From the IMG/VR virus record IMGVR_UViG_3300022689_000073, positions 1-22,307 of that record: a stretch of 22,307 nt of DNA. The stretch is one strand, 5' to 3'. This stretch comes from a virus. Positions 5,661-21,644 of this stretch are shown here, in pieces (the first letter of the stretch is position 1; each line of letters opens with the position of its first letter). Position numbers and translations under genes: made by a program. Below the pieces are notes generated by a model that saw nothing but the letters and a program-made list of their open reading frames with translations, did not search any database and had not been told where the DNA came from.

Positions 5661-6692
5661 ATGATCTACGGCGATATCTCTCCGGCAATCGCGGCCTACT
5701 CGGTCGTGCGCATGCTCAAGCGTGCGATGCCCTACATGGTCCTCGAGAAGTTCGGCCAGACCTACGTCCTGCCGACGAACAGCACGCGTACCGCGAAGTT
5801 TCGCCGGTACTTCCTGCAAGGCGCGACCGGCTCGGCTGGTTCGGGCAACCCCGCGGATAACTTCAACATCCCGGTCCGGATCGAGCCCCTGATCGAGGGC
5901 GTGACCCCGCAGGGCTCCCGTCTGGCCAATCAGGACTACGAGATCACCGTGCAGCAGTACGGCGACTACATCACGATCACCGACGTGATCGAGGACACGC
6001 ACACCGACCCGATCCTGCAGGTGTCGACGGACGTGCTCGGCGAAAGCGCCGCGCTGACGCTGGAGACGCTCCGGTTCAACGTCCTGAAGGCCGGCACGAA
6101 CGTCTTCTACGCCAACGGCGTGGCGGGCCGGGCCAACGTCGTGGCCCCGATCTCGCTCGCGGATCAGCGCCGGATCACGACCGGCCTCAACCGCCAGAAC
6201 GCGAAGAAAATCTCGCAGGTGGTCGCCTCGACCCCCGACTTCAACACGAAGTCGGTCGAAGCAGCCTACATGGCGGTGTGCCACCCCGATCTGGAGACCG
6301 ACATCCGCTCCATGTCCGGCTTCAAGCCGGTCGCGGATTACGGCCCCCACACCACGCCTTTCGAGGGTGAGATCGGCTCGGTGGAGCAGGTCCGGTATCT
6401 GGCCTCCACGGTCATCGCCCCGTGGCCGGACGCAGGCGGCGCGGTCGGCACCAACCGGTCGACGGACGGGACGGCTTCGGACGTCTACCCGGTCATCTTC
6501 TTCGCGCGCGACGCCTTCGGCATCGTGCCTCTGAAGGGCAAGTCGTCGATGACGCCGATGGTCGTGAACCCCAAGCCCGCCGCAGGCGACCCGCTCGCTC
6601 AGCGCGGCACCGTGGGCTACAAGTTCTGGACCGCGACGATCATCCTGCAGGAAGCCTTCATGGCCCGGCTGGAATGCACCGCAACCGCGTGA
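5661..6692 (+). CDS. major capsid protein, N4-gp56-like family
   Basis: This 343-residue protein should be the HK97-fold subunit of the icosahedral shell. It follows the scaffold by 22 bases, with AGGAG six bases before ATG. Features like those of the N4-gp56 capsid family include the N-terminal helix and extended arm (residues 1-70), a conserved middle (YEITVQQYGDYITITDVIED, about 93-112), and the C-terminal block with DPLAQRGTVGYKFW and ILQEAFMARLECTA. The length is within the usual range. A strong TTCG hairpin begins four bases after the stop, so it can be regulated separately from the genes below it. Codon use is the most regular in the window, as expected for a highly expressed protein. 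Confidence 0.9.
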   Translation: MIYGDISPAIAAYSVVRMLKRAMPYMVLEKFGQTYVLPTNSTRTAKFRRYFLQGATGSAGSGNPADNFNIPVRIEPLIEGVTPQGSRLANQDYEITVQQYGDYITITDVIEDTHTDPILQVSTDVLGESAALTLETLRFNVLKAGTNVFYANGVAGRANVVAPISLADQRRITTGLNRQNAKKISQVVASTPDFNTKSVEAAYMAVCHPDLETDIRSMSGFKPVADYGPHTTPFEGEIGSVEQVRYLASTVIAPWPDAGGAVGTNRSTDGTASDVYPVIFFARDAFGIVPLKGKSSMTPMVVNPKPAAGDPLAQRGTVGYKFWTATIILQEAFMARLECTATA

Positions 6693-7692: not shown

Positions 7693-8451
7693 ATGAACGT
7701 CGGCGAACTGCTCTATGAGCTGAGGCACAACATTCTGCACGACCGGACAAATCAGGTGTCCGGGACAAGCGACCAGCTCTGGAGCGATGCCACGCTGGTC
7801 AGGTACATCGACGAGGCTCAGCGGCGTCTGGCGCGGCTGGGCTTCGTCATTCGAGATCATCGCACCCCCGACACATGCCGCCTCACGACTGTTCCCGGGC
7901 AGCAGGAGTACGAGCTGCACCCCGCGGTGCTGGCCGTCATGTCTGCGCGCGTCGAGGGCGCGACGTCGGACCTGCTGAGGCTTGGCCATGCGTCGATCGG
8001 CGGCTACCTGATCGAAGGCGTCGACCCGGCGCAGGGGCAGCACATCGTGGGCATGCAGCCCGGCCACGCGCTGGCGTTCCAGACCGACGAAGGCTTCGCG
8101 GAAGATGACGAGGGCAGCGTGGGCGTCACCACTCTCCGGGTCATCCCTGAGCCGCAAGAGGCTCAGACATTGCAGCTTCGCGTCGTGCGCGAGCCGATCT
8201 TCCGGCTGGAGGCCACGCAGCTCACCGCGGTGCCTGAGGTACCTGAGCACCATCATCTGGAGATGCTCGACTGGGCGGCGTATCTGGCGCTGCGCATTGT
8301 CGATCTGGACGCGGGCAGCCCGCGCCGCGCGCAGGAGTTCGCGGAGCAGTTCGGCCAGACGGTCGCGCTGGCGCGGCGGACGGCCATGCGGAAACTGAGA
8401 TCACCACGAGGCTGGGGCTTTGGCCAGTTCGGCTTCTCTTGGGAGAGATGA
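7693..8451 (+). CDS. head-to-tail adaptor protein candidate
   Basis: This encodes a 252-residue protein. Adaptors ring the portal and join it to the tail. The call uses its place after the head genes and an N-terminal helical segment with DQLWSDATLVRYIDEAQRRLARL (about residues 27-49), a pattern I associate with phage adaptor proteins. A beta-rich insertion fills residues 65-170. A helical C-terminus (HHHLEMLDWAAYLALRIVDLD, then a repeated Ala/Arg/Gln helix) closes the fold. AGAAGG stands six bases upstream of ATG. The next gene starts one base after the stop, so both are translated as one unit. A tail-completion role is the main alternative. Confidence 0.72.
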   Translation: MNVGELLYELRHNILHDRTNQVSGTSDQLWSDATLVRYIDEAQRRLARLGFVIRDHRTPDTCRLTTVPGQQEYELHPAVLAVMSARVEGATSDLLRLGHASIGGYLIEGVDPAQGQHIVGMQPGHALAFQTDEGFAEDDEGSVGVTTLRVIPEPQEAQTLQLRVVREPIFRLEATQLTAVPEVPEHHHLEMLDWAAYLALRIVDLDAGSPRRAQEFAEQFGQTVALARRTAMRKLRSPRGWGFGQFGFSWER

Positions 8452-8452
8452 G

Positions 8453-9148
8453 ATGGCAGGACAATACGATCCGATGAAAGAGGTGCTCGCGCGCACCAAC
8501 CCCAACATGCAGTTTCTCGAGCCTCGACCTGCGGCGCAGCCCGGGCCTACGGCGGCACAGATGCGCGACGCTGTGGTCCAGCAGATCGTGCCAAGTGCGG
8601 CAGGGCAGTTTCCTCCTACCGAGGCGTTCATGGACATGCGGCTTATGCCTGACACGGCAGGTGGAGGCTCTCGTGGTGACCGCAGGGCCCGGCGAGACAA
8701 CACGGTTCAGCCTACGCCTCGGGGAGCCCCTTCGACAGGCAGCGCTCAGCGACGCGCGTCTCGTGGGCAGTCAAACGCAGCGGCGCGTGCGCGGGAGGAG
8801 CGCTCTGAGGCGCAGCCCGGCATGACCCCTCGACCTGACGGTCAGGTTTTCGCGGTGCTGCCTGAGCTCAACATGGAGCAGCAACGCCGAGCAGCTGCCG
8901 AATACCTGAGCAACTACAATATGGCCGAGCTTCAGGCACTGCAGGGGATTATCCCGCAGCGTGCGGAGCCGCAGCCGATCGCCGAGCAGGCTGGGATGCT
9001 TCTCCTCCAAGAAGGGTTGAAGGCTTTCGACTATTCTCAGAGGCCAGAGGCTTCGATGGAAGAAGCAGCAGCCGGTCAAGACGCATGGCAGCAGCTGCTC
9101 ATGAGCCTTCTGAACCCCCCGACCCAGATACCGATGCCTTACGAGTGA
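8453..9148 (+). CDS. unrecognised Gln/Ala/Pro-rich virion-region protein
   Basis: This encodes 231 residues from ATG 8453, chosen because GGAGAG (8442-8447) fits it; an upstream in-frame start at 8420 would lie deep in the adaptor gene. I do not recognise the protein. Residues 1-60 are Pro/Gln-rich and mixed. About 70-130 are basic and disordered (Arg/Ser/Ala-rich). About 140-231 are helical (NMEQQRRAAAEYLSNYNM, then ALQGIIPQR), followed by an acidic-Gln end. There is no signal peptide or membrane helix. Its position between the adaptor and the giant virion protein suggests an internal core, chaperone or ejected protein. Confidence 0.7.
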   Translation: MAGQYDPMKEVLARTNPNMQFLEPRPAAQPGPTAAQMRDAVVQQIVPSAAGQFPPTEAFMDMRLMPDTAGGGSRGDRRARRDNTVQPTPRGAPSTGSAQRRASRGQSNAAARAREERSEAQPGMTPRPDGQVFAVLPELNMEQQRRAAAEYLSNYNMAELQALQGIIPQRAEPQPIAEQAGMLLLQEGLKAFDYSQRPEASMEEAAAGQDAWQQLLMSLLNPPTQIPMPYE

Positions 9149-9151
9149 CCC

Positions 9152-12100
9152 ATGGAGATTGACCCGTTCACAGGCTTTGTCAGGCCCCCGCGCGGCGGCA
9201 TGCCTGCGACCGCCGTCCAGCGGCGTTGGGAGAACGCGCCGGGCACTGTGGTCAGCCGCGGTCTCGGCCGCGGGGTCGACACGATCCAGCGCAATCTCGG
9301 GTCGGCCCTCGAGGGTATCGGGAACGTCACAGGTCTTGAAGGCTTGGCAGACGCTGGGGCTCGCTCCGTGGCGCGTAATCAGGCCGAGATCGACGCGTCG
9401 CGCGCGATGGAGAACGACAGCGTCGCGACGTGGCTCGGTTCTCTGTTCGCGGAAAACGCTCCGCAGACAGCGACAAGCATCGGTCTACCTGCACTCGGTG
9501 CAGGTATCGGGTCGGCTGTGCCCGGCGTGGGCACAGCTATTGGTTTCGGCATCGGTACCGCGGCGTCGGCGCTGTTCAATTACGGCCAGCTTGCCGGTGA
9601 GAACCGGGAGCGGCAGAAGGCGGAGAACGTGGCACGTGGGCTCGAGCCCATGGTGGACGAAGGGCGCGCGTTTGGGACCGCGGTACCCCAGACCGCGCTG
9701 GAGACCCTCGGCGGCGCGCTGCAGGCTCGGCTGGCGATCCGTGCGCGTAGAGCTGCAGGAGACGAAGGGTTCGGAGTATTTTCGCGTCAGGGCGCGCGAG
9801 AGATCGCGGGGGCGGCAGGGCGCGGCGCAGCGATCGAAGGTGCAACCGAAGTCGGCCAGACGGCGATGAACCGGGCGCAGGCGGACTTGGACAATACCAG
9901 CCGCGAAGCGCTTCAAGAGCTTGCGATCGCAGGTCTGGCAGGCGCAGTCCTCGGCGGCACGCTCAGTGCTGGAGGGTCCGCGATCGGCATCCAGATGCGG
10001 AAGCCGGCGGAGGTATCGACAGGTAATCTTGAGCAGGAAGTTGACCGGGCTCTCGGCCTTCCAGCGCCCGATCAGGTCCTCGCGCTGCCACCGCCTGATG
10101 CGGGCCCTGCAGCGCTCTCGGGCCCTGAAGCGGCGCTCAGGCTACCTCCGCCGCGCGAGCCGCCCATGGCGGGGGATGTGGTGGTCACACCACCGGTTGC
10201 GCAGCCACCTGCTCCGGGAGCATTGCCAGCACCTGATCCGACGCTCACGTTGCCTGCACCTGCGCCGGGACCGCAAGTTCTGCCGCCCCCGGGCGCACCG
10301 TCGCTCGACACGGGCGCGGACCTCGCAGGTGGAAGCGTCGACGCAGCCCCGGCAAGGCCGCTCCAAAACGTACCTGACCGGCAACTCTTCGAGCAGCTCG
10401 TGGCCGCTCAGAGCGCCGCGCAGTCGCCCCTGTCGACGGCGAGCGAGGCCACGGCTCAAATCCAAGCCGAGATGGAGGCTCGTGGGCTGGAGATCACACC
10501 GCGCGGCCCGGTGAGGCGCGCGGCGTTCGCGGATGCCACTGTGCAGGACCTGAACCGGGCCCTCGTCACTCTGCGGAACCAAGAGCAGCAGGGTCAGCCG
10601 CTGACCGAGGTGGAGCAAGAGCTTCGCACGCAGATGACGAGCGAGCTCGAGCTTCGGCGCGCAGAGCGCGACGGCCAGCTGTCGATGATCAACCCAAACG
10701 CCACCACCGACCGCACCGCGTTCAGGGACCTTCGGGACGGGCAGCGCAGCGATTTTGTCAGCGAGGCGGCGGACAGGTTCGGCGCTCCCAAGGGGTGGAA
10801 GAACACGAGGTACGCCAAGAGGCTCAGGGTACGCAGCACGGAGGAGCTATATGACAAAGTCTTCGACGATGTGGCCGCGATCGAGGCGTTCGATAGAGGT
10901 GAGAACACCCGGTTCGACGGGCCTGCAGGGCAAAGAGAGCGCGCAGCGATCGAGGCTATGGCGGACCGCTTGGGCGATCGCGATCTGGGTCCAGAGATTG
11001 CTCAAGCGCAGCAAGAGCTGGAAGCTGCTCGTGCGCAGTTCCCAGACGGCCGGCGCGTACTGGAGCAAGACTCTGAGGCCATGGCGCAGTTCAACGCAGC
11101 GCTCGGTGCGCAGCGGGCAGCGACGGCGCGCATCAACGAGCTGCAAACACTTCAGCAGAACGCAGAGGCAGCTCAAGCCCGTGCCAAGAAGCGGGCCACC
11201 ACCGCAGCAGCTTACGTCGGTGATCCGAATGATGCAGTACCGCTCAGCGAAGTGCTGGCCATCGACCCTGATGCGACAGGTCCGAACTGGGTTGACCGCG
11301 CCACGCAAAATCTGACGCAAGGCGCTCCGGTCGGAGCACTGGGCGATGCCTTGGCAGACGCGGCTGCGCCTATCACCAGAGAGCGGCAGATACAGGCAGC
11401 AGAAAATCAGCGCGCTGCTCAGAACGAGGCTCGCAATTTCCGGCAGATGAACGAGGGGATCGCCAATCAGGCGCTGAGAGACGAGGCAGGTATCGTGATG
11501 CAGCGGCGAGGGCCGCTCAACAACGAGGGAACGCCTGTCAGCGCGCCGCCGGGGCCGGCACGGAACATGCAGGTCAAGTCCGCGATCCGAGAAGCCATGG
11601 GCCGGATCGGTATGGCAGATACGGACGTCTATGTGCTTGGCAACGCCAAGGCCTTGCCTGACGACGTTGGAGGCCAGCTGTCACGTGATTTCACGGACAA
11701 CGGGAACCTGAAGCCTGTGTCTGAGCTGCTGGACGCAGACACCAACGCGGTAGCGACAGACGACGGCACGGTCGTGATCTTTGCGGACAAGGTCCAGTCG
11801 AAAGAAGACGCTGTGGCGCTGCTGTACCACGAGGTGCTGGGCCATCGAGGCATGACGGCGATGTTCGGTCAGGACCGAGCTGAAGCGATCATGGACCTCT
11901 ATGATCGCAGCCCAGCACTGAAGGACATGGTCAAGCAATGGGAGACCGCGGTGGGCCCCGAGGCCATGGCGTATTACTCGAAGATGCCCAAGTGGGTGCA
12001 GGTCGAGGAGGCGATCGCGGTCAAGGCTGAGAGTGGACCGATCCGGAAGTCGTACTTGGAGCCCATGCTGGCGATCATCCGGAAGTACGCGCGCATGGTC

Positions 12101-15100
12101 GGGCTCAAGAGCAAGAGCATCAACCAGAGAGAGCTCAACGCCATCTTGGCGGAGGCGCATGAGCGAGCCATGCGCGGTGAAGGTGCGGGCGTAGCCAAGC
12201 GCCCCGCGCCCGCAGAGAACCCTAGAGGCCCGATGCCGCCCCCGGCGCAGATACTGGACGCTGCTCAGACGTATGGCGATCCCAACACCGCTGGGCCTGT
12301 GCTGCGCGCGTCCTTGGGTGCGGTAGGCGGGCTGCCCAACACTCCTGAAGGTGACATGACCGCGATCGGGCGGATCATGAAGGTTGCGGAGAAAGGCGCG
12401 GAAGGTGTCCGAGGCCTCGTGAACGCAGACCGGTCCGAGCAGGTACGCGGCGCGGCGCTGTGGCTGCAATCCATGGGCCACATTGCACAAAAATACGGCA
12501 AGCACTTTCCGATGAAGGTCGCAGGCAAGGCGACCAACGCGCTCGAGCATATCCGGAACGCGCATACCGACCGCACGGTGGTCCAGTCGATCTGGTCGCG
12601 GCTCAGCGATAACCGGCTCAAAGAGGTCGCGGCCTTGAGCAAGAACCTCAAGGAAGGTGTCAGCTCTCTTATGGAGGCGACCTTCTACCGGCTCGACCCC
12701 CGGAAGAAGCTGGAGGATCACACGCACTTGACGCCGCAAGAGCGGGCTGACCGGCGGAAGGTCTACAATCGCCTGCGGCAGAATTACCTGCGCATGCAGC
12801 GCAACCCGGCGGCGCGCAAGGCCTACGCGAACATGATCGCAGTCAACGAGGCCACGTTCTTCCAGCACCACGCGACGGTGCTTTATGAGCTGATCCGGAT
12901 GACCCCGGAAATGCGCGCGAATATCCCGTCTGCGCGGACCAACCCTCTTCGGCGGTTCGTCAATGCGCACAAGGCTCAGGATGATCCCGTGAAAGCGCGG
13001 GCGTTCTGGGAGAAAGAGCTCCAGACGCTGCTCTCGGAGACCAAGACCTTCGTAGCTGCGCGCCGGACCGCGCTGGATACAGGCGGGCGACAGGATGTAG
13101 GCCAGATCACGCAGATGCTGACGCTCTTGCAGGCGCAGCTTGATCAGACCGACGCACAGCTTCGCGAGGCGAAGGACTACCCGTACTTCCACATCGGCCG
13201 CTTCGGTGAGTACGCCGCGTCGTTCAACCTCAAAACCATCACAGATGCGAGTGGCAAGAAGGTGGCGGATCAGCGCGCGGTGAACGCGGCGTCTGCCGCG
13301 CTCGAGAAGCTGGGCTATCACAACATCGGGATCAGGGAGGAGGCGGACGGTGCGGTGGTCTTCATCCGGACCGAGACCCGGGAAGCCGCGATGGACTTGG
13401 AGCGCATGGCCAAAGAGCTCATGCAGCAAGGCCTCGTGACCGAGGTCAAGGACAGCACCGAAATTGACCCGATCCAGTTCATGCCGGAGAGCACTCAACG
13501 CACCGTGGGCATGCTGGTCGAGCAAATCCGGGCCATGAATATGCCCGTCGCAGGCGAGAGCCAGCAGGATATCGACCGGCGCAACGCGTACATGGCTCGG
13601 CTGGAGGCAGACCTGAAGACGGCGATGCTCAACAGCATGCCGGAATACGCCAACGCCAAGGTTATGGCGCAGCGGGAGTTTCGTTCTGGCTACAGCACGA
13701 ACATGCTGCGCGCGTTCGCGAAGCGGCAGCAGATCGCGGCGCTGTCCGCGGCGAACCGGCTGGCCGGGGAGATGACCACCGAGGGCTTCCAAGCCATGCG
13801 CGACAGTGTGGAAGCCATGCCCTCTCAGGACAAGTGGCGCGGCTTCACAATCATGCGCGAGATGCAGGCGCGTGAGATGGTGAACCGCGACGATACGAAG
13901 GTCTCGCGGTTCATGGGCGGCGCGCGGGCCTTCAACCACAATTATTACCTCGCGATGAACCCCGGCTACATGCTGACCCAGATCACGCAGGTCTGGACGA
14001 ACGCCATGCCCGAGCTGACCAAGCTGGGGGCGAGCAACAGGCAGGCTGCTCGACTGCTCGTGCAAGCGGCACCACTTGCGGCGAAGATCGTGGGCGCTGC
14101 CATCCGCGCGGCCAAGGCAAAGGGCTTGGGCAGTGCTTGGGATGGAACGCTTAGCAGCGAGGTCCTTGCGACGGTGCAGCTATCGCCGGACCCGGCCAAG
14201 GACCAAGAGCTGAAGGACTTCATCATGTACATGGTGAACACCGGCTCGATCGACATCGGCTCTCAGACGCGTCAGCTGGGGCAAGCGGCGGAGAACCAGA
14301 CTGACAGCAAGTTCGACACCACCATGCGCTTCGCGTCGTCGGCCAGCTATTATCTGGAGATGGCGACGCGCCTGACGGGTACGCTGGCAGCGCGAGAGCT
14401 GGCGGTGGCGCAGGGCAAGGACCTGAGCGCGCAGCAGGACGCGGCGTACACGCTCGTGGACGAGGCGTTCTTCAACTACACGGAAGGCAACCGCGCGCGG
14501 GCGATCGGCCGTGGCGGGTTCGCCAAGGAAGGCACGCCGCTCCTGACCGCGTTCATGACATTCCCGATGCTCATGACAGAGAAGTACACCCGTGAGATCG
14601 GCGCTGCGCTAGGAGCGGACAGCGCCAATCCAGAGGAAAGAGCGGCTGCGCAGCGGTGGCTCAAGACGCACCTCGCAGTGATGGGAGTGCTCGCAGGCGG
14701 GCTCGGGATGCCGTTCGTCGCGATCGTCGCGGGCGTCATCGACCGACTTGCCGATCTCTTGGGAGATGACGAGGAGCCCTTCAACGTCCGGGCGAATTTC
14801 CGGAACTTCCTCGCAGATACGTTCGGAGAAGACGTAGGGGAGGTGCTGGCGCGCGGACTGCCTCGCGCCGTGGGCTTCGACATCTCCTCGCGGGTGGGCG
14901 CGGCCGAAATCGTACCGTTCTCGCAGCTGATCAGTGACAGGCGTCCGTTCAGCGAGGCGATCACAGCGCAGACAGAGCGCGCGTTCGGCTCAGCCCTTGG
15001 GATCGCGAGTGATGGATGGACCGGAGTTGGGCACATCCTGCGCGGCGACATCCTCGAAGGTCTGCGCACCGGTGCGCCACTGGCGATCCGCAACCCGGCG

Positions 15101-15529
15101 AACGCGCTCAAGATGACCACGGACGGCTTCACTGACAGCCGGGGCACACTTCTGCCGCTGACCCCTACCGCGTCCGACATCCTCTACCAGATGATCGGGC
15201 TCACACCGGCGCAGCGGGCGGAGTATAGCGAGGCGAACTTCGCTCAGGCGGTTCGCCGCGGCCGGGTTACGCGCACCGCGACGCGCATCCGCAAGCGCAT
15301 CCAGATCGCAGTGGCGAACGGTAACCGAGACGCCCTGCGCGAGGCTTTCCAAGATGCGATGGAGTTCGACCAGAACGTCGACCCGTCGTATGCGATCCTG
15401 CCAAACATCATGCGGTCGGTGAACCAGTCGAGCGACCGCCAGTCGCTTGCGAGAGCACTGGACGCTCCGCTAGGTGTGCGGGCCAACGATCTAGGTGGGC
15501 AGCAGCTCACACGCTTCATGAACCTGTGA
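9152..15529 (+). CDS. giant internal virion (polyvalent-type) protein with metallopeptidase-like motif
   Basis: This encodes 2125 residues. Visible parts in order: glycine-rich hydrophobic stretches near 106-146 and 257-281; a Pro/Ala-rich linker at about 300-400; charged helical and coiled-coil sequence at about 430-780; a zincin-like domain with HEVLGH at 893-898 and a possible third ligand at E952/E953 (VEEAIA); a mixed region around 1340-1440 containing FHIGRFGEY; and a long helical C-terminal region (about 1570-2125) with a hydrophobic segment near 1835-1860. The HExxGH pattern recurs in large phage and plasmid 'polyvalent' proteins, which travel with DNA into the new cell. The C-terminal part resembles polyvalent-associated helical domains; I suspect LPD38 but cannot verify it. 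The ribosome site is weak (GAG only). The likely role is ejection through the envelope plus early host modification or wall/protein cleavage. Confidence 0.8.
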   Translation: MEIDPFTGFVRPPRGGMPATAVQRRWENAPGTVVSRGLGRGVDTIQRNLGSALEGIGNVTGLEGLADAGARSVARNQAEIDASRAMENDSVATWLGSLFAENAPQTATSIGLPALGAGIGSAVPGVGTAIGFGIGTAASALFNYGQLAGENRERQKAENVARGLEPMVDEGRAFGTAVPQTALETLGGALQARLAIRARRAAGDEGFGVFSRQGAREIAGAAGRGAAIEGATEVGQTAMNRAQADLDNTSREALQELAIAGLAGAVLGGTLSAGGSAIGIQMRKPAEVSTGNLEQEVDRALGLPAPDQVLALPPPDAGPAALSGPEAALRLPPPREPPMAGDVVVTPPVAQPPAPGALPAPDPTLTLPAPAPGPQVLPPPGAPSLDTGADLAGGSVDAAPARPLQNVPDRQLFEQLVAAQSAAQSPLSTASEATAQIQAEMEARGLEITPRGPVRRAAFADATVQDLNRALVTLRNQEQQGQPLTEVEQELRTQMTSELELRRAERDGQLSMINPNATTDRTAFRDLRDGQRSDFVSEAADRFGAPKGWKNTRYAKRLRVRSTEELYDKVFDDVAAIEAFDRGENTRFDGPAGQRERAAIEAMADRLGDRDLGPEIAQAQQELEAARAQFPDGRRVLEQDSEAMAQFNAALGAQRAATARINELQTLQQNAEAAQARAKKRATTAAAYVGDPNDAVPLSEVLAIDPDATGPNWVDRATQNLTQGAPVGALGDALADAAAPITRERQIQAAENQRAAQNEARNFRQMNEGIANQALRDEAGIVMQRRGPLNNEGTPVSAPPGPARNMQVKSAIREAMGRIGMADTDVYVLGNAKALPDDVGGQLSRDFTDNGNLKPVSELLDADTNAVATDDGTVVIFADKVQSKEDAVALLYHEVLGHRGMTAMFGQDRAEAIMDLYDRSPALKDMVKQWETAVGPEAMAYYSKMPKWVQVEEAIAVKAESGPIRKSYLEPMLAIIRKYARMVGLKSKSINQRELNAILAEAHERAMRGEGAGVAKRPAPAENPRGPMPPPAQILDAAQTYGDPNTAGPVLRASLGAVGGLPNTPEGDMTAIGRIMKVAEKGAEGVRGLVNADRSEQVRGAALWLQSMGHIAQKYGKHFPMKVAGKATNALEHIRNAHTDRTVVQSIWSRLSDNRLKEVAALSKNLKEGVSSLMEATFYRLDPRKKLEDHTHLTPQERADRRKVYNRLRQNYLRMQRNPAARKAYANMIAVNEATFFQHHATVLYELIRMTPEMRANIPSARTNPLRRFVNAHKAQDDPVKARAFWEKELQTLLSETKTFVAARRTALDTGGRQDVGQITQMLTLLQAQLDQTDAQLREAKDYPYFHIGRFGEYAASFNLKTITDASGKKVADQRAVNAASAALEKLGYHNIGIREEADGAVVFIRTETREAAMDLERMAKELMQQGLVTEVKDSTEIDPIQFMPESTQRTVGMLVEQIRAMNMPVAGESQQDIDRRNAYMARLEADLKTAMLNSMPEYANAKVMAQREFRSGYSTNMLRAFAKRQQIAALSAANRLAGEMTTEGFQAMRDSVEAMPSQDKWRGFTIMREMQAREMVNRDDTKVSRFMGGARAFNHNYYLAMNPGYMLTQITQVWTNAMPELTKLGASNRQAARLLVQAAPLAAKIVGAAIRAAKAKGLGSAWDGTLSSEVLATVQLSPDPAKDQELKDFIMYMVNTGSIDIGSQTRQLGQAAENQTDSKFDTTMRFASSASYYLEMATRLTGTLAARELAVAQGKDLSAQQDAAYTLVDEAFFNYTEGNRARAIGRGGFAKEGTPLLTAFMTFPMLMTEKYTREIGAALGADSANPEERAAAQRWLKTHLAVMGVLAGGLGMPFVAIVAGVIDRLADLLGDDEEPFNVRANFRNFLADTFGEDVGEVLARGLPRAVGFDISSRVGAAEIVPFSQLISDRRPFSEAITAQTERAFGSALGIASDGWTGVGHILRGDILEGLRTGAPLAIRNPANALKMTTDGFTDSRGTLLPLTPTASDILYQMIGLTPAQRAEYSEANFAQAVRRGRVTRTATRIRKRIQIAVANGNRDALREAFQDAMEFDQNVDPSYAILPNIMRSVNQSSDRQSLARALDAPLGVRANDLGGQQLTRFMNL

Positions 15530-15544
15530 CCAAGAGGTAAACCC

Positions 15545-15901
15545 ATGGCCGCGTCCCAGCACGATATCACGATCCTTCAGGGCGCGACTTTCGACATGAG
15601 CGCCACATGGACTGACGACACCGGCAACCCGGAAGACCTCACCGGAGTGCTGGCGCGCATGCAGGTGCGAAAGTCTCACAGGTCTGACGAGGTACTTCTC
15701 AACCTCGACAGCGATACGCTGGGCGGGATCACGTTGGACATCCCTACGGCCGAGATCAGCATCGAGGTGACCCCGACCCTTACCGCCGCGCTTCCCGGAA
15801 GGCTGCGAGGTGTGTATGACTTGGAGCTAGAGTTCCCCGGAGGCCGCGTCGTCCGCCTCCTCCAAGGCCGGGTGCGCGTGGACCCTGAGGTGACCCGATG
15901 A
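15545..15901 (+). CDS. BppU N-terminal-like small fibre-associated protein
   Basis: This encodes 118 residues, with AAGAGG (15532-15537) seven bases before ATG. The sequence matches the pattern of the Ig-like N-terminal domain of phage baseplate upper/fibre proteins: [20 protein letters not shown], then a DLTG turn, an alternating beta region, [11 protein letters not shown], and an ending on [10 protein letters not shown]. Such domains link a fibre to the tail. Here it is a separate gene whose stop overlaps the fibre start by four bases (ATGA), implying coupled translation and a probable physical partnership with the fibre. A stand-alone head or tail structural role cannot be excluded. Confidence 0.75.
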
Positions 15902-18900
15902 GCACGATCACGATCGTAACTTCCACGCAGGGCGGGGCAGTCACGCTGCAGTCGGACGAGACTACGCTCAATGTCGTCTCCGGCGGCGCGCAGGGTCCGG
16001 CGGGTCCTCAAGGACCAGTCGGTCCGGAGGGCCCTCAAGGCCCGGCCGGACCGCAAGGCACGACTGGCGCGACTGGCCCCGCAGGCCCCACTGGCCCCGA
16101 AGGCCCACAAGGTCCGGCAGGACCGGTCGGCCCTCAAGGCGCAGATGGTCCTCAAGGTCTGACCGGTCCTGAAGGCCCGGCCGGTCCTGAAGGCCCACAA
16201 GGCCCGGAAGGGCCTGCAGGTTCGCAAGGTGATCCCGGCGTCATCGGCCCCGAAGGCCCGCAAGGTCCGCAAGGCGACCCCGGCCCTACAGGTCCGCAAG
16301 GCCCTCAAGGTATCCAAGGTCCCATCGGCCTGACCGGCCCGCAGGGTCCGCAAGGCCTCGAGGGTCCGCAAGGCCCGATCGGCCCCGAAGGTCCTCAAGG
16401 GACCGGCCTTACGATCCTTGGCACGCTCACGGACCAGTCCGAGCTTCCGGGCTCGCCGACAAACGGAGACGCGTACATTATCGCGGGTGATCTCTGGGTC
16501 GCCAACGCAGGCACATTCAGCAACGCTGGACCGGTGCAGGGACCGGAAGGTCCTACAGGCCCCGCGGGCCCTCAGGGCATCCGAGGGCCCACAGGACTTA
16601 CGGGCCCGGCAGGCGCGGATGGCGCGGATGGTGCAACCGGTCCGCAAGGCCCGGCAGGACTTACAGGCCCGGCAGGCGCGGATGGCGTGGACGGTGTCGA
16701 TGGTGCAGATGGCTCGGTCTGGCGCTCTGGTGCAGGCGCTCCCGCGGCGTCTCTCGGTGTGGACGGTGACTTCTACCTCGATACAGATACAGGCGACGTC
16801 TACAGGAAAGCTGCAGGAACCTACGCAACTGTGGACAACATCCAAGGTCCGACAGGCGCGACAGGCCCGCAAGGCCCGCAAGGCCCGCAAGGCCCGACAG
16901 GCCCAACAGGCGCAGCAGGTGCGGATGGCGCGGATGGCTCGGTATGGCACTCCGACACAGGTGTCCCGTCGATCTTCCTTGGCGCGGATGGCGACTTTTA
17001 CCTCAGAACCGACACCGGTGACGTCTACGAGAAAGCGTCCGGCACTTGGTCGGTCGTCGACAACCTCACGGGCCCCTCGGGGCCCGCAGGTGCGGACGGC
17101 GTAGACGGGGTCAGCGACCCGGATGCGCGGATCGTCTATCCGGTCGAGGACCTGCAAGGGAGCATCACGCTCAACGAGAGCGGACTGGTCGACAACAACA
17201 CGTCTGGGCGGCTTCTGGTCACGACAGGGTCGAACGGCACGATCACGGTGACGCTGCCCACGCAGGCGACAAGCGCGATCCGCAACGGCGCGATGTTCAC
17301 GCTCGTGAACAAGGGCCCGAATTACACGGTCCAGATCGCGGCCGAGGTAGGCGCGACGATCAACGGGGCGACCGATACTCTTCAGCTCAACGACTTCTCC
17401 ACGGTCACGCTGTTCAAGATTGCAGCAAACGATTGGGTGGTGGGTACGGGCATCGCTGGCCCAGTAGGCCCAGAAGGTCCGTCCGGGCCAGCAGGTCCGA
17501 CAGGCCCGGCAGGCCCCCAAGGCCCGGTGGGGGATGGGCTGAACGTCCTTGGCGTCTTGGCAGCCGAGGTGGACCTTCCGGGCTCACCTGCCGATGGCGA
17601 CGCGTACCTGATCAACGGCGATCTCTGGGTGGCTTCTGGCGGCACGTTCACGAACGCAGGTCCCGTACAGGGCCCAGAAGGCCCGACAGGCCCGCAAGGC
17701 CCGGCAGGGCCTCAAGGCGACCCCGGCCCTGAAGGCCCGCAAGGACCGGCAGCCGAGAACGGCACCCCATTCGCGGGCGCGCGCGGTGCTTTCGAGAATT
17801 ATCAGATCACCACGACAGGCGCGGTCGTCGACGTGGCGATGTCGACTGAAGTTTACGACACCCACGATTTTCTCGACATTGCAACCAGCACCACTCGGTT
17901 TACGATACCCGCAGGAGTGACCCGTGTACGGATACGCGCGTTCGTCGGCCGAGACAACGCGGACCCCATGCCTGCGTCCAACCAGTGGGCAGTCGCCAAA
18001 AATGGAACAGTTGTACCCTCTGCAGAAGGAGGCGTGATAGCCAGCTTGATAATCGCTGGGTACACGAACTCAGGGATTACGGTCGTATCGGGCGTGATCT
18101 CTGTCGCTGAAGGTGACACGATAGGTCTGGTAGCGTTTCTCGCTGCGAGCGCCCAGATTGACGGCTGGGTTGAGATCGAGGCCGTCGACGGCAGCATCGT
18201 GGCCAGTGGACCGGCAGGCCCGGCAGGCGCGCAAGGGCCCGCGGGCCCGGCAGGCGCGCAAGGTGACCCCGGCCCAGCAGGAGCGGCAGGCGCAGACGGT
18301 GCAGATGGCGCGGTCTGGCGCTCTGGCGCAGGAGCTCCATCCAACGGCCTTGGCGCAGATGGCGATTTTTACCTCGACACCGACACTGGCGACGTCCACG
18401 AGAAAGCCGCCGGAACCTACTCAGTTGTGGGCAACATCCAAGGTCCCGCGGGCGCGACCGGCCCCGCAGGCCCGCAAGGCTCTGGGCTGACCGTTCTCGG
18501 CACGCTTGCGTCGACAGGAGACCTCCCCGGTTCTCCCTCGGATGGTGACGCGTACATCATCTCTGGCGATCTCTGGGTCGCCAGCGGAGGTACGTTCTCC
18601 AACGCAGGAGCGTTTGTCGGTCCTCAAGGCCCCACAGGCGCGACCGGCCCTGCAGGTCCGCAAGGCGACCCCGGGCCGACAGGCGCGACCGGTCCCGCAG
18701 GCGCAGATGGTGCAGACGGTGCAGCCGGCCAAGGCGTCCCGGCGGGGGGTACCGCAGGACAGGTCCTAGCGAAGATCGACGGCACTGACTACAACACGGA
18801 GTGGGTCGCGCAGTCAGGCGGCGGGGGCGGCGCGAGCGCGATCGACGACCTCACGGACGTGGACACCTCCACGACCGCGCCGACCGCTGGCCAAGCTCTT

Positions 18901-20451
18901 GTCTGGAACGACACAGACAGTGTCTGGGAGCCCGGCAATGTGGCTGCTGCGGGGGGAGGCTCGGTCAAAGCCGCCAAAGGGCTGTTCACGACAAACTTCG
19001 ATGTCCCGGCGACCACCGATACGATCTTGAGCATTGCGTCGACAGAGTTCGATACAGACGGGTTCTGGAGTGCAGGCAGCCCCACTCGGTTCACCGTTCC
19101 TGCTGACACCAGTTGGGTCGTACTCACCGCCAACGTGGTTGCTCGACAGCTTCAGACGGCAAGCACTGACTACATACTGCGCTTCAAGAAGAACGGCGTG
19201 AATTTTCAGTCGGTTACAGTGGATAACCAGTTCTGGGGCCCGCCTGCGATGACGTCGGGACCGCTTGAGGTGGTAGCAGGGGATTACTTCGAGCTCGAGG
19301 TCTGGTGTACTGACGCATGGGAGCTTAACACAGCGCTCTCATTTTTCACGATCCACGCGCTCGCAGCGGGCGGAGGCGGCGCGAGCGCGATCGACGACCT
19401 CACGGATGTGGACACCTCCACGGCCGCACCCACCGATGGCCAAGCCCTTGTCTGGAATGTCACAGACAGCGTCTGGGAGCCGGGGGAAGGGGGCACGACG
19501 ATCAACGGCCTGAACGACGTCGGCGATGTGGCTCTTGACCCGAGCGCGATCACTGACGGAGACGTTGGCCGGCCGCTAGGGCTCGTGTCGCGCAATCCGG
19601 ACACCTACGGGCTGCTGGAGCGTCTGGTCGCGGAGCCGGTGGCCGGTGGCTCCAAGATCATTGCCGAGCAGGACTTCGGGGCATCGAACGGTACAGAGCT
19701 GGTCATCTCTGACACGCACCTCTACGACGAAATCTGGATCATCGCATCAGAGCTGAGCGACACCGCGATGAACCTGCAGTTGCGCCCGGACGGCACGACT
19801 GCAGCAGCATGGGACTTCGACCGCATTCGCGTGTTCGACAGCGGCAGTGGCGTAACCGCGACCGTATCCGAGACCACAGGTGGCAGCGATGTGTTCTTCG
19901 GCTCTGGCGGGGCCGATCTCAGCGCCCTCGCGGTGGTCCGGGGCACGAAATCAGGCATCCCGCTCACGATTGACCGCACCCTCGGCGCGCGAGGCAATAG
20001 CTACTACCACACGTCGCTCGTGGTGGCTCAGAACGCGCTGGAGCTTCGCGCGATCGCGCTGCAGGCCACCTCCACGCTGACCGCAGGCAAGGTCTATGCG
20101 GTCGGTATCCGGCACTCTGCGCAGCCGCTCATCGTCCCGCTCGACTACGCCGGCAGTCCGGCTGGGGCGGGTACGCTCGCGCGCCACGTGCTGCCCATGA
20201 ATGCGACCATCCGGGCCGGTGCGCAGGGCCAGTTCAAGACCGAGACGAACCCGAGCGCTTCTACCGCGATTGACGTCCGCAGGAACGGTACGTCCATCGG
20301 CACGGTCACGATCCCCACAAGCGGCGATCCTACGATCGACATCCCCTCGGAGACCAACCTGACGACCGGAGACGTCCTGACGCTGCACGCCGCCGCGAGC
20401 GGGGACTTCGTGGACCTCTACGGCTCGCTTCTGCTGGAGGGTCGAGATTGA
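15898..20451 (+). CDS. modular collagen-like tail fibre
   Basis: This encodes 1517 residues. After about 30 beta-like residues, Gly-X-Y collagen tracts (mostly [12 protein letters not shown]) alternate with small repeated domains: module A (LPGS..GDAY...GDLWVA; residues 170, 547, 863), module B ([16 protein letters not shown]; residues 272, 347, 804), a beta-rich domain at 408-520, two related jelly-roll-like domains (about 625-765 and 1025-1155, sharing a TRFT-IP/VP block), and module C ([14 protein letters not shown]; about 977 and 1160). The last 300 residues are unique and beta-rich, the likely receptor-binding tip or trimerisation end. GAGG is seven bases before ATG. Trimeric collagen-like stalks are known in phage fibres; host specificity is inferred. 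Confidence 0.9.
15991..16404 (+). repeat. longest collagen-coding tract (Gly-X-Y)
   Basis: About 137 codons follow a strict glycine-every-third-residue pattern, mostly GGN-CCN-CAA/GAA units coding Gly-Pro-Gln and Gly-Pro-Glu. One aspartate-containing unit type (GDP) breaks the regularity. The nucleotide sequence is therefore a near-9-base tandem pattern and a likely place for slippage or recombination. It resembles tandem repeats or a CRISPR array at first glance, but it is coding and lacks unique spacers. Confidence 0.85.
18826..18930 (+). repeat. module C DNA repeat, copy 1
   Basis: This 105-base segment of the fibre gene codes [15 protein letters not shown] followed by a Gln-Ala-Leu-Val-Trp block. 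It matches copy 2 (19375-19479) with nine mismatches counted by eye and no length difference. The mismatches include both silent and replacement changes. Copy 1 is preceded by the common fibre linker [15 protein letters not shown]. Confidence 0.85.
19375..19479 (+). repeat. module C DNA repeat, copy 2
   Basis: Second 105-base copy of the segment at 18826-18930. Copies begin 549 bases (183 codons) apart, with the second jelly-roll-like domain between them, so recombination between copies would remove that domain and one repeat while keeping the reading frame. Confidence 0.85.
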
Positions 20452-21644
20452 GCCGGTACGTCGTCAGCTTGCACAAGGACGCTGACCGGGCGGCGGTAAT
20501 CGCTGCGCTGTCGACGCAGGGCGTCGTGCAGGAGTTCTCTGCGATCCCTCTCCTGCTGCAGTGGGACGGGCCTGAAGCGCTCGAGCCCAGCATGCTGGCA
20601 ATCCCGGGCGTCCGCGCGATCCAGAAAGACGAGCCGCGTCAATTTCGCGGGCTGTCGACCCACTACCTCGGGGCGCGCACGGCCGGGGTCCACGGGCAGC
20701 CCGCGATCGTGCTGCACGGGCAGAAGCCCGGGCAAACGCTCTTCAACAGCATGCGAGACCTCATTCAGCCGGTAGGAGAGGAGGTCGAGTTCGACTACGA
20801 CCCGACTGCAGGCGGGCTAGGTAACGGCTCAGGTGTGCGTGTCTACGTCGCTGACAGTGGAGTGGACGCGGATCACCCCGAGTGGACCGGCCGCTTCGGG
20901 GGTCTGATCTACAATGGTTACGGCGCGAACGCGTACCATCCGCACGGGTCGCGGGTGGGGTCAGTCGCCGTAGGTACGACCCTTGGCGTTGCTCCCGGGG
21001 CGACAATCTACGACGCGCGCGTACTCGACACCGGCAACACTGGCTCAGGGTCGATTGTCGTGAACGGCATCAACGCTTGCCTCACGAACTTCAACGCCGG
21101 GACCGACCCCGGGGTGCTCAACCTATCGCTCGGTGGCACAGGCACCAACATCTACGAGACTGCCCTCGACGCTTGTCTGGACGCGGGCCTCGTCGTCGTG
21201 ACTTCGGCCGGGAATGACGGAAACGACCTCGACGACCCCGGCGCACCGGATGCGTGGCCGGCAGAAATGTCCGACGTGGTCACGGTTGGAGCTCTGGACC
21301 CGCAGATGCGGCTGATCCCCTTCACGAACAGAGGTAGCGTTGTCGATCTCTTCGCGGTAGGGATCACCTACAATGGTGCGAACGAAGTAGGCGGGTTCTC
21401 GCGCCCGCTGTCGGTGCAAGGGACCAGCTTCTCAGCTCCCCTGACGACTGGGCTCATGGCGCGCATTCTGGGTGGCACCGCCAAGATGACCACACGTGCT
21501 GAAGTTTTGAGCACGGTGACAACACTGCTCAGCGACTACACCGTGGAGGACGTCAGGAACCGCGACGGCTCGTCGCGTGTTGGGCGAAAGCGTCTCTGGA
21601 TACCGGGTGTCACACGCACCGGCGTCGTGACCTATCCGGTCTGA
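20448..21644 (+). CDS. subtilisin-like serine protease (S8 family)
   Basis: This encodes a 398-residue S8 protease with the complete catalytic set: D136 in VADSGVD, H166 in HPHGSRVGS, oxyanion N256 in SAGNDG and S327 in GTSFSAP. Residues 1-65 ([19 protein letters not shown] and on) resemble a short I9-type prodomain, which would be cut off on maturation. There is no signal peptide, so it is made in the host cytoplasm and could enter the virion. The start is TTG, six bases after GGAGGG (20436-20441), and overlaps the fibre stop as TTGA, giving translational coupling. Possible roles are maturing the fibre or another virion protein, or degrading host surface protein at infection. Phage-encoded subtilases next to fibres are uncommon. 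Confidence 0.88.

Follow-up and report, generated by a model that had tools for sequence, protein, structure and literature searches.

Among the closest described counterparts of the protein analysed here are the vRNAP of phage N4 and the PLxRFG (tail-700) class of polyvalent proteins. According to PMC12633501, N4 vRNAP is an ejected protein built of a lipid-binding N-terminal domain, the polymerase, a C1 domain with an HExxH motif and a helical C2 domain; it is packaged unprocessed (PMC5512222). In polyvalent proteins, Iyer et al. (2017) already described zincins with an HEXXXH motif, for which a bent helix was predicted (PMC5512222), and the motif as such is therefore not new. We found no account of the role of the zincin domains of injected phage proteins, even for N4, the best studied case. 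Here we analyse a 2125-residue PLxRFG protein encoded in the IMG/VR virus record IMGVR_UViG_3300022689_000073, a stretch of 22,307 bases (the window) that is probably a fragment. What the analysis adds is a peptidase position that is kept while its content is swapped, together with a link of this position to the N4 C1 domain.

Family and layout of the giant protein

The gene was found where a sequence-only reading of the window had placed it, and the glycine-rich and proline-rich segments described in that reading were confirmed. The protein is laid out as follows:

9152..15529, + strand: giant gene, 2125 residues from an ATG start, PLxRFG polyvalent protein (NF032893 match)
9152..10111, + strand: residues 1-320, hydrophobic N-terminal part rich in glycine; identity to relatives L014 and L015 57-58%
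10112..11521, + strand: residues 321-790, poorly conserved linker, proline-rich and then Gln/Ala-rich
11522..12211, + strand: residues 791-1020, likely HExxGH zincin domain (alignment, model and hidden Markov model, HMM)
11828..11845, + strand: HEVLGH, residues 893-898, with H893, E894 and H898 invariant in 60 of 60 domains
12008..12010, + strand: E953, likely third metal ligand, invariant; the adjacent E952 is D or E in relatives
12434..15526, + strand: residues 1095-2125, mostly helical C-terminal part (model pLDDT 82, viral structure matches)
13337..15439, + strand: residues 1396-2096, NF032893 tail-700 profile match

Residues 1-320 are a possible membrane part. The proline part of the linker was 16-21% identical among relatives, and 29 prolines were counted within residues 301-400. 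Long antisense open reading frames (ORFs), such as 11681-14065 (-), were taken as by-products of the ~65% GC content.

The lead to polyvalent proteins given by the sequence-only reading held: NCBIfam NF032893 (tail-700, PLxRFG domain-containing protein) matched residues 1396-2096 with 214.7 bits (E 2.4e-63, cut-off 100). The C-terminal part also matched the C-termini of two PHROGs without function. Pfam recognised no domain in the whole protein, hence neither a T7-like RNA polymerase nor a lytic transglycosylase, the enzyme that T7 gp16 carries at its N-terminus. When phage records were searched by tblastn, only the C-terminal part was found, in F116-like, Itty13-like, Agrobacterium and Rhizobium phages, and the annotation of some relatives reads structural protein only. 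Remoter relatives carry ART-PolyVal, InPase and LPD1/5/37/38/39 domains, several enzymes among them, whereas the zincin is the only enzymatic domain recognised in the window protein, beside non-catalytic parts. The giant protein is of a known kind, the PLxRFG polyvalent proteins with an HEXXXH zincin. It has in common with them (NF032893; PMC5512222) the C-terminal domain, the late-gene position, the giant size and the HEXXXH zincin with a distal Glu, and unlike the remoter relatives it lacks named LPD or enzyme domains by Pfam. Matches in Mycobacterium phages were dropped, being antisense to annotated genes. Sequence resembling the C-terminal part was also seen, outside any listed gene, in NZ_CP119140.1 (1130123-1131436) and in NZ_CP119142.1, which are chromosome-sized (2.17 Mb) Neisseria gonorrhoeae records in a plasmid collection.

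The structure model of the C-terminal part, computed on an alignment of 40 sequences, was mostly helical (pLDDT 82, pTM 0.78) with a small alpha/beta part at ~1354-1437, so that the long helical C-terminus proposed earlier stands, although not as a purely helical one. Many predicted viral structures matched this model, several of them named 'large polyvalent protein associated domain' (E to ~6e-21), and so did internal virion protein D of the Roseobacter phages CRP-5 (E 5e-7) and CRP-4 (1.6e-6), with TM-scores of 0.24-0.35. The sequence match to CRP-5 at the C-terminal end was weak (E 7e-4; hhalign 22.7%). Foldseek against the PDB returned nothing significant for the C-terminal model.

Short patterns from the giant protein itself retrieved no close relatives; relatives were fetched via the capsid protein, which gave 80 related virus contigs. 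Where a contig reaches far enough, the adaptor gene is followed by a giant ORF of ~2000-2400 residues. The nearest relatives, in contigs L014 and L015, are ~50% identical over their full length. A cultured relative, Pseudomonas phage Rollin (OR577172), has the same gene order as the window, and its giant protein (tail-700 match, 4.5e-109) shares the tail-700 C-terminus and the zincin family with the window protein, differing by an LPD39 domain and by an HEMGH motif. The annotation of that protein (L094:10453-17007) names it oligopeptide ABC transporter OppA, but it is a PLxRFG polyvalent protein.

The HExxGH domain

The HEVLGH motif and the downstream E952/E953 pair were present as described earlier. 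HEVLGH is the sole HExxH or HExxxH motif in the 2125 residues, and since any such motif occurred in only ~1.3% of shuffled copies of the protein, chance is an unlikely origin. Its spacing is that of HExxxH (five residues from His to His), unlike the usual HExxH. An alignment was made of 60 diverse HExxGH domains encoded by phages and prophages; they are mostly ~20% identical to that of the window, and the only invariant columns were H893, E894, G897, H898 and E953 (window numbering); the E952 position is D or E in near relatives. Because E953 is invariant in all 60 domains, it is the likely third ligand. The pair offered by the sequence-only reading is thereby narrowed to E953, E952 being set aside, and the choice of point mutants is guided. 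HEVLGH very likely marks a genuine zincin site, in which, judging from the conserved residues, H893 and H898 are likely the metal ligands and E894 the base.

An AlphaFold2 model based on the 60-domain alignment had a mean pLDDT of 80, with values >90 through most of the core. It runs from a helix through strands to a long helix bearing HExxGH and on to further helices, E953 lying on the second one after. The clustering of metal ligands suggested earlier is thus borne out in part: at the level of secondary structure, one helix bears H893, E894 and H898, and E953 follows on a later helix, in a zincin-like arrangement. The top rows of a VIA-align comparison were almost all zincins: anthrax lethal factor (Z 6.4; 160 aligned, 5.2 A), then MATCAP (Z 5.5), PPEP-3 (5.0), the plasmid antirestriction protein ArdC (3.7), minigluzincins, ACE and LTA4 hydrolase. 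Because these Z values are modest, we grade the zincin fold of the modelled domain as likely and not as proven.

Pfam assigned no family to the 60 domains, and Pfam and NCBIfam hold no model for the HExxGH domain; phrog_14770, whose function is not named, matched 44 of the 60. PDB sequence searches with the whole protein, the domain and two profiles gave nothing meaningful. The Rollin domain belongs to the same family as the window zincin (HMM E 1.1e-27) yet reads HEMGH, with the classical spacing. HExxGH and HExxH can thus both occur within one zincin family, as they do in M49 dipeptidyl peptidase III. This enzyme has the same HExxGH spacing (HELLGH...EE) and a Glu-Glu third-ligand site ~55 residues on, and it was tried as an identity for the window domain. 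The likeness was confined to motif and spacing: a sequence match was not obtained, and the structure lists contained no M49 entry, although absence from the VIA list is not excluding. The identity was rejected, and the likeness is probably convergent.

The peptidase position

We compared 28 non-redundant giant proteins encoded beside related capsid genes, the window protein included, some of them open at the 3' end. An HExxH or HExxxH motif was present in 25 of these, against 1.09 expected from shuffled sequences. In the complete proteins, 1175-1281 residues separate the motif from the C-terminus (mean 1228, standard deviation 29), whereas its distance to the N-terminus is far more variable (860-1224, standard deviation 111). 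The HExxH of N4 lies 1273 residues from the protein end.

The position is mostly filled by one of two zincin types, the HExxGH type of the window or a second type that is homologous to C1 of N4 vRNAP (hhalign 97.8%, 8.7e-13; its HMM finds N4 at 3.8e-10). In the alignment of the second type (A6), H, E, H and a distal E were again the sole invariant columns. Leave-one-out HMMs fitted nearly every protein to exactly one type, the score being ~80-195 bits for that type and ~zero for its alternative. An HExxH is also present in L059 and L085/L086, yet neither type fits. A possible third type is seen in L086:14089-20625 and in L059, where HExxH is followed by DEWFAD/DEFAAD at the same position; L086 and L059 are sister rows in the tree of the C-terminal part (99/94). 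The two main types are remotely related around the motif (91%, 1e-6, 39 columns), the alignment having a gap of one residue at the motif itself. Compared directly, the window zincin and N4 C1 gave a weak signal (hhalign 16.4%), consistent with only a remote relation. The C1 type is nevertheless present in sister proteins that have the same C-terminal part as the window protein.

The tree of the C-terminal part mixes the types, its well-supported branches forcing at least three changes of the HExxGH label and at least four of the other. L034 and L069 (HExxH) are sister to L043 and L049 (HExxGH) with support of 100/100. L034 and L043 align at 37.5% over residues 58-990 and at 42% over 1315-2342, while the zincin-holding stretch between is unalignable; L069 and L049 show the same alignable flanks around an unalignable zincin stretch. 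Drift of a fast-evolving domain was rejected as the origin of the difference between L034 and L043, since the window zincin is among the best-conserved parts when compared with the same-type L015 (68%, core 78%) and the HMMs split the types cleanly. In the comparisons with L014 and with L100 the zincin was not the best-conserved part. We read the type differences as a domain-for-domain exchange of zincins, at least three times, rather than as drift. Two giant relatives, L017:12151-18417 and L052:8363-14338, have no recognisable zincin.

A kept position with exchanged zincin types was not found described in the literature. That 25 of 28 relatives keep a peptidase at the same place although its type is exchanged points to selection on its activity, and the repeated swapping at the same place suggests that this activity matters. 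The pairs L034 with L043 and L069 with L049 are natural swaps that could be used in tests. A bolder proposal, which we hold tentatively and regard as doubtful, is that a fixed peptidase position before the C-terminal part is common to N4-like and PLxRFG-type ejection proteins. Very distant zincins (HExxGH, N4-C1, perhaps the third type) would be exchanged there as whole domains because peptidase activity delivered by the virion is strongly selected while its target changes, making the domain an exchangeable weapon for the opening minutes of an infection.

Proposed role of the protein and its gene neighbourhood

The gene position, the family, the parallels to N4 and CRP-5 and the glycine-rich N-terminal part suggest that the giant protein is the largest ejection protein of a podophage, of the PLxRFG class. 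It would be packed with the DNA and pass out through the tail either ahead of the DNA or together with it. Its glycine-rich part may then be embedded in the host membrane or lie against it, and packaging, ejection or DNA entry may be the task of the conserved C-terminal part, which is mostly helical. The middle domain would be a catalytic HExxGH zinc peptidase in which H893, H898 and E953 hold the metal and E894 is the base, catalysis being argued from the invariance of E894. Once ejected into the new host, this peptidase would most likely act on a host protein or a defence protein. We infer packaging, ejection, zinc binding, activity and target alike; literature searches on the virion proteomics of proteins of this kind yielded nothing usable. 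The analysis itself shows the family, the gene position, the invariant signature, the zincin-like model, the upkeep of the zincin position and the repeated exchange of types. A polyvalent ejection protein with a catalytic zincin, taken alone, is quite probable in our judgement; the whole proposal, including a post-ejection peptidase acting on a host or defence protein, has about an even chance of being right.

N4 gp50 (Schitoviridae) has in common with the window protein the large N-terminal part, the zincin position and the helical C-terminal part. Moreover, gp50, the largest N4 ejection protein, holds the same place at the end of the head-and-connector block. The two differ in that gp50 has a polymerase and the window protein has none, and in that C2 and the window C-terminal part have no detectable relation; homology to C2 was set aside because profile comparison gave no signal, even when the alignment held 54 diverse rows. 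The C-terminal model of the window protein matches internal virion protein D of CRP-5 and CRP-4 (T7 gp16-like) at low TM-scores, and the CRP-5 protein lacks the zincin motif. Several results weigh against our proposal: Foldseek with the zincin model found nothing significant in the PDB, the VIA Z values reach 6.4 at most, the TM-scores that connect the protein to internal virion protein D are low and the accompanying sequence match is weak, and the zincin is not indispensable, as L017 and L052 indicate that it can be lost as well as replaced.

The zincin might instead be directed at its own giant protein, cutting it before packaging or once inside the cell and so releasing separate working parts. 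Iyer et al. (2017) propose autoprocessing for many polyvalent proteins, and DdrB of phage P1 is processed before packaging (PMC5512222); moreover, the zincin is flanked on both sides by a large conserved part, and a cut at a defined site would fit the constant spacing between this domain and the C-terminus. N4 vRNAP, however, carries the very type that replaces the window's in near relatives and is nevertheless packaged unprocessed (PMC5512222). An exchange of types would in addition upset a co-evolved self-cleavage site, unless the site were swapped along, whereas it suits a changing host target. We therefore favour action on another protein and consider autoprocessing rather unlikely.

The constant distance to the C-terminus would also fit a zincin fold that now serves the C-terminal block as a structural element, binding metal without cleaving. 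In N4, the C-terminal domain together with its C1 is an allosteric regulator of the polymerase, and the passages of PMC12633501 that were read report no peptidase activity. Yet a structural site needs no base, and E894 is invariant in 60 of 60 domains, as is its counterpart in the second type; a purely structural role is also hard to reconcile with exchange between two very different zincins, and we give it a slim chance. It is similarly improbable that the protein is a tail or assembly protein that is not ejected and whose peptidase acts in morphogenesis on capsid or scaffold. The structural-protein annotation of some relatives, the NCBI domain name tail-700 and the lack of a separate head protease recognised in the window would fit such a role. 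Against it stand the place after the adaptor, the setting in a podophage, the parallels with N4 and CRP-5 and the domains of relatives (ART-PolyVal, InPase, LPD1/5/37/38/39), which are typical of injected polyvalent proteins.

The ejection-protein proposal draws in part on the neighbouring genes, among which are:

5661..6692, + strand: major capsid protein (PF25209, phrog_1357), the probe used for fetching relatives
7693..8451, + strand: SU10-type adaptor (PF24175)
8453..9148, + strand: 231-residue low-complexity protein directly upstream of the giant gene, possible second ejection protein

Upstream, the order is terminase large subunit, portal-like protein, acidic scaffold-like protein, major capsid protein, small genes, SU10-type adaptor and the 231-residue protein. 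The giant gene closes this terminase-portal-capsid-adaptor block and thus lies among late virion genes. No separate ejection proteins were recognised within the window; such proteins of podophages are often unrecognisable by sequence. The sequence-only reading had taken the giant protein as a stand-in for several core proteins. This was not established, as a 231-residue gene of unplaced role lies upstream and the contig is probably a fragment, so that a gene absent from it says little. The 231-residue protein was otherwise present only in the two closest relatives and is poorly conserved even among near relatives. It sits where N4 has smaller ejection proteins, and we would guess that it is a second ejection protein.

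Downstream of the giant gene follow an LtfC-like protein, a 1517-residue collagen-repeat protein and a subtilase (PF00082), the last having no relative among the 80 capsid-related contigs and Rollin. The collagen-repeat protein (PF01391, 8 stretches) is probably a fibre and has a four-base overlap with the subtilase, the two genes together spanning 15898-21644. Between the giant protein and this fibre, at 15545-15901, lies the LtfC-like beta-sandwich protein (phrog_1084), whose PHROG kin are L-shaped tail fibre assembly proteins.

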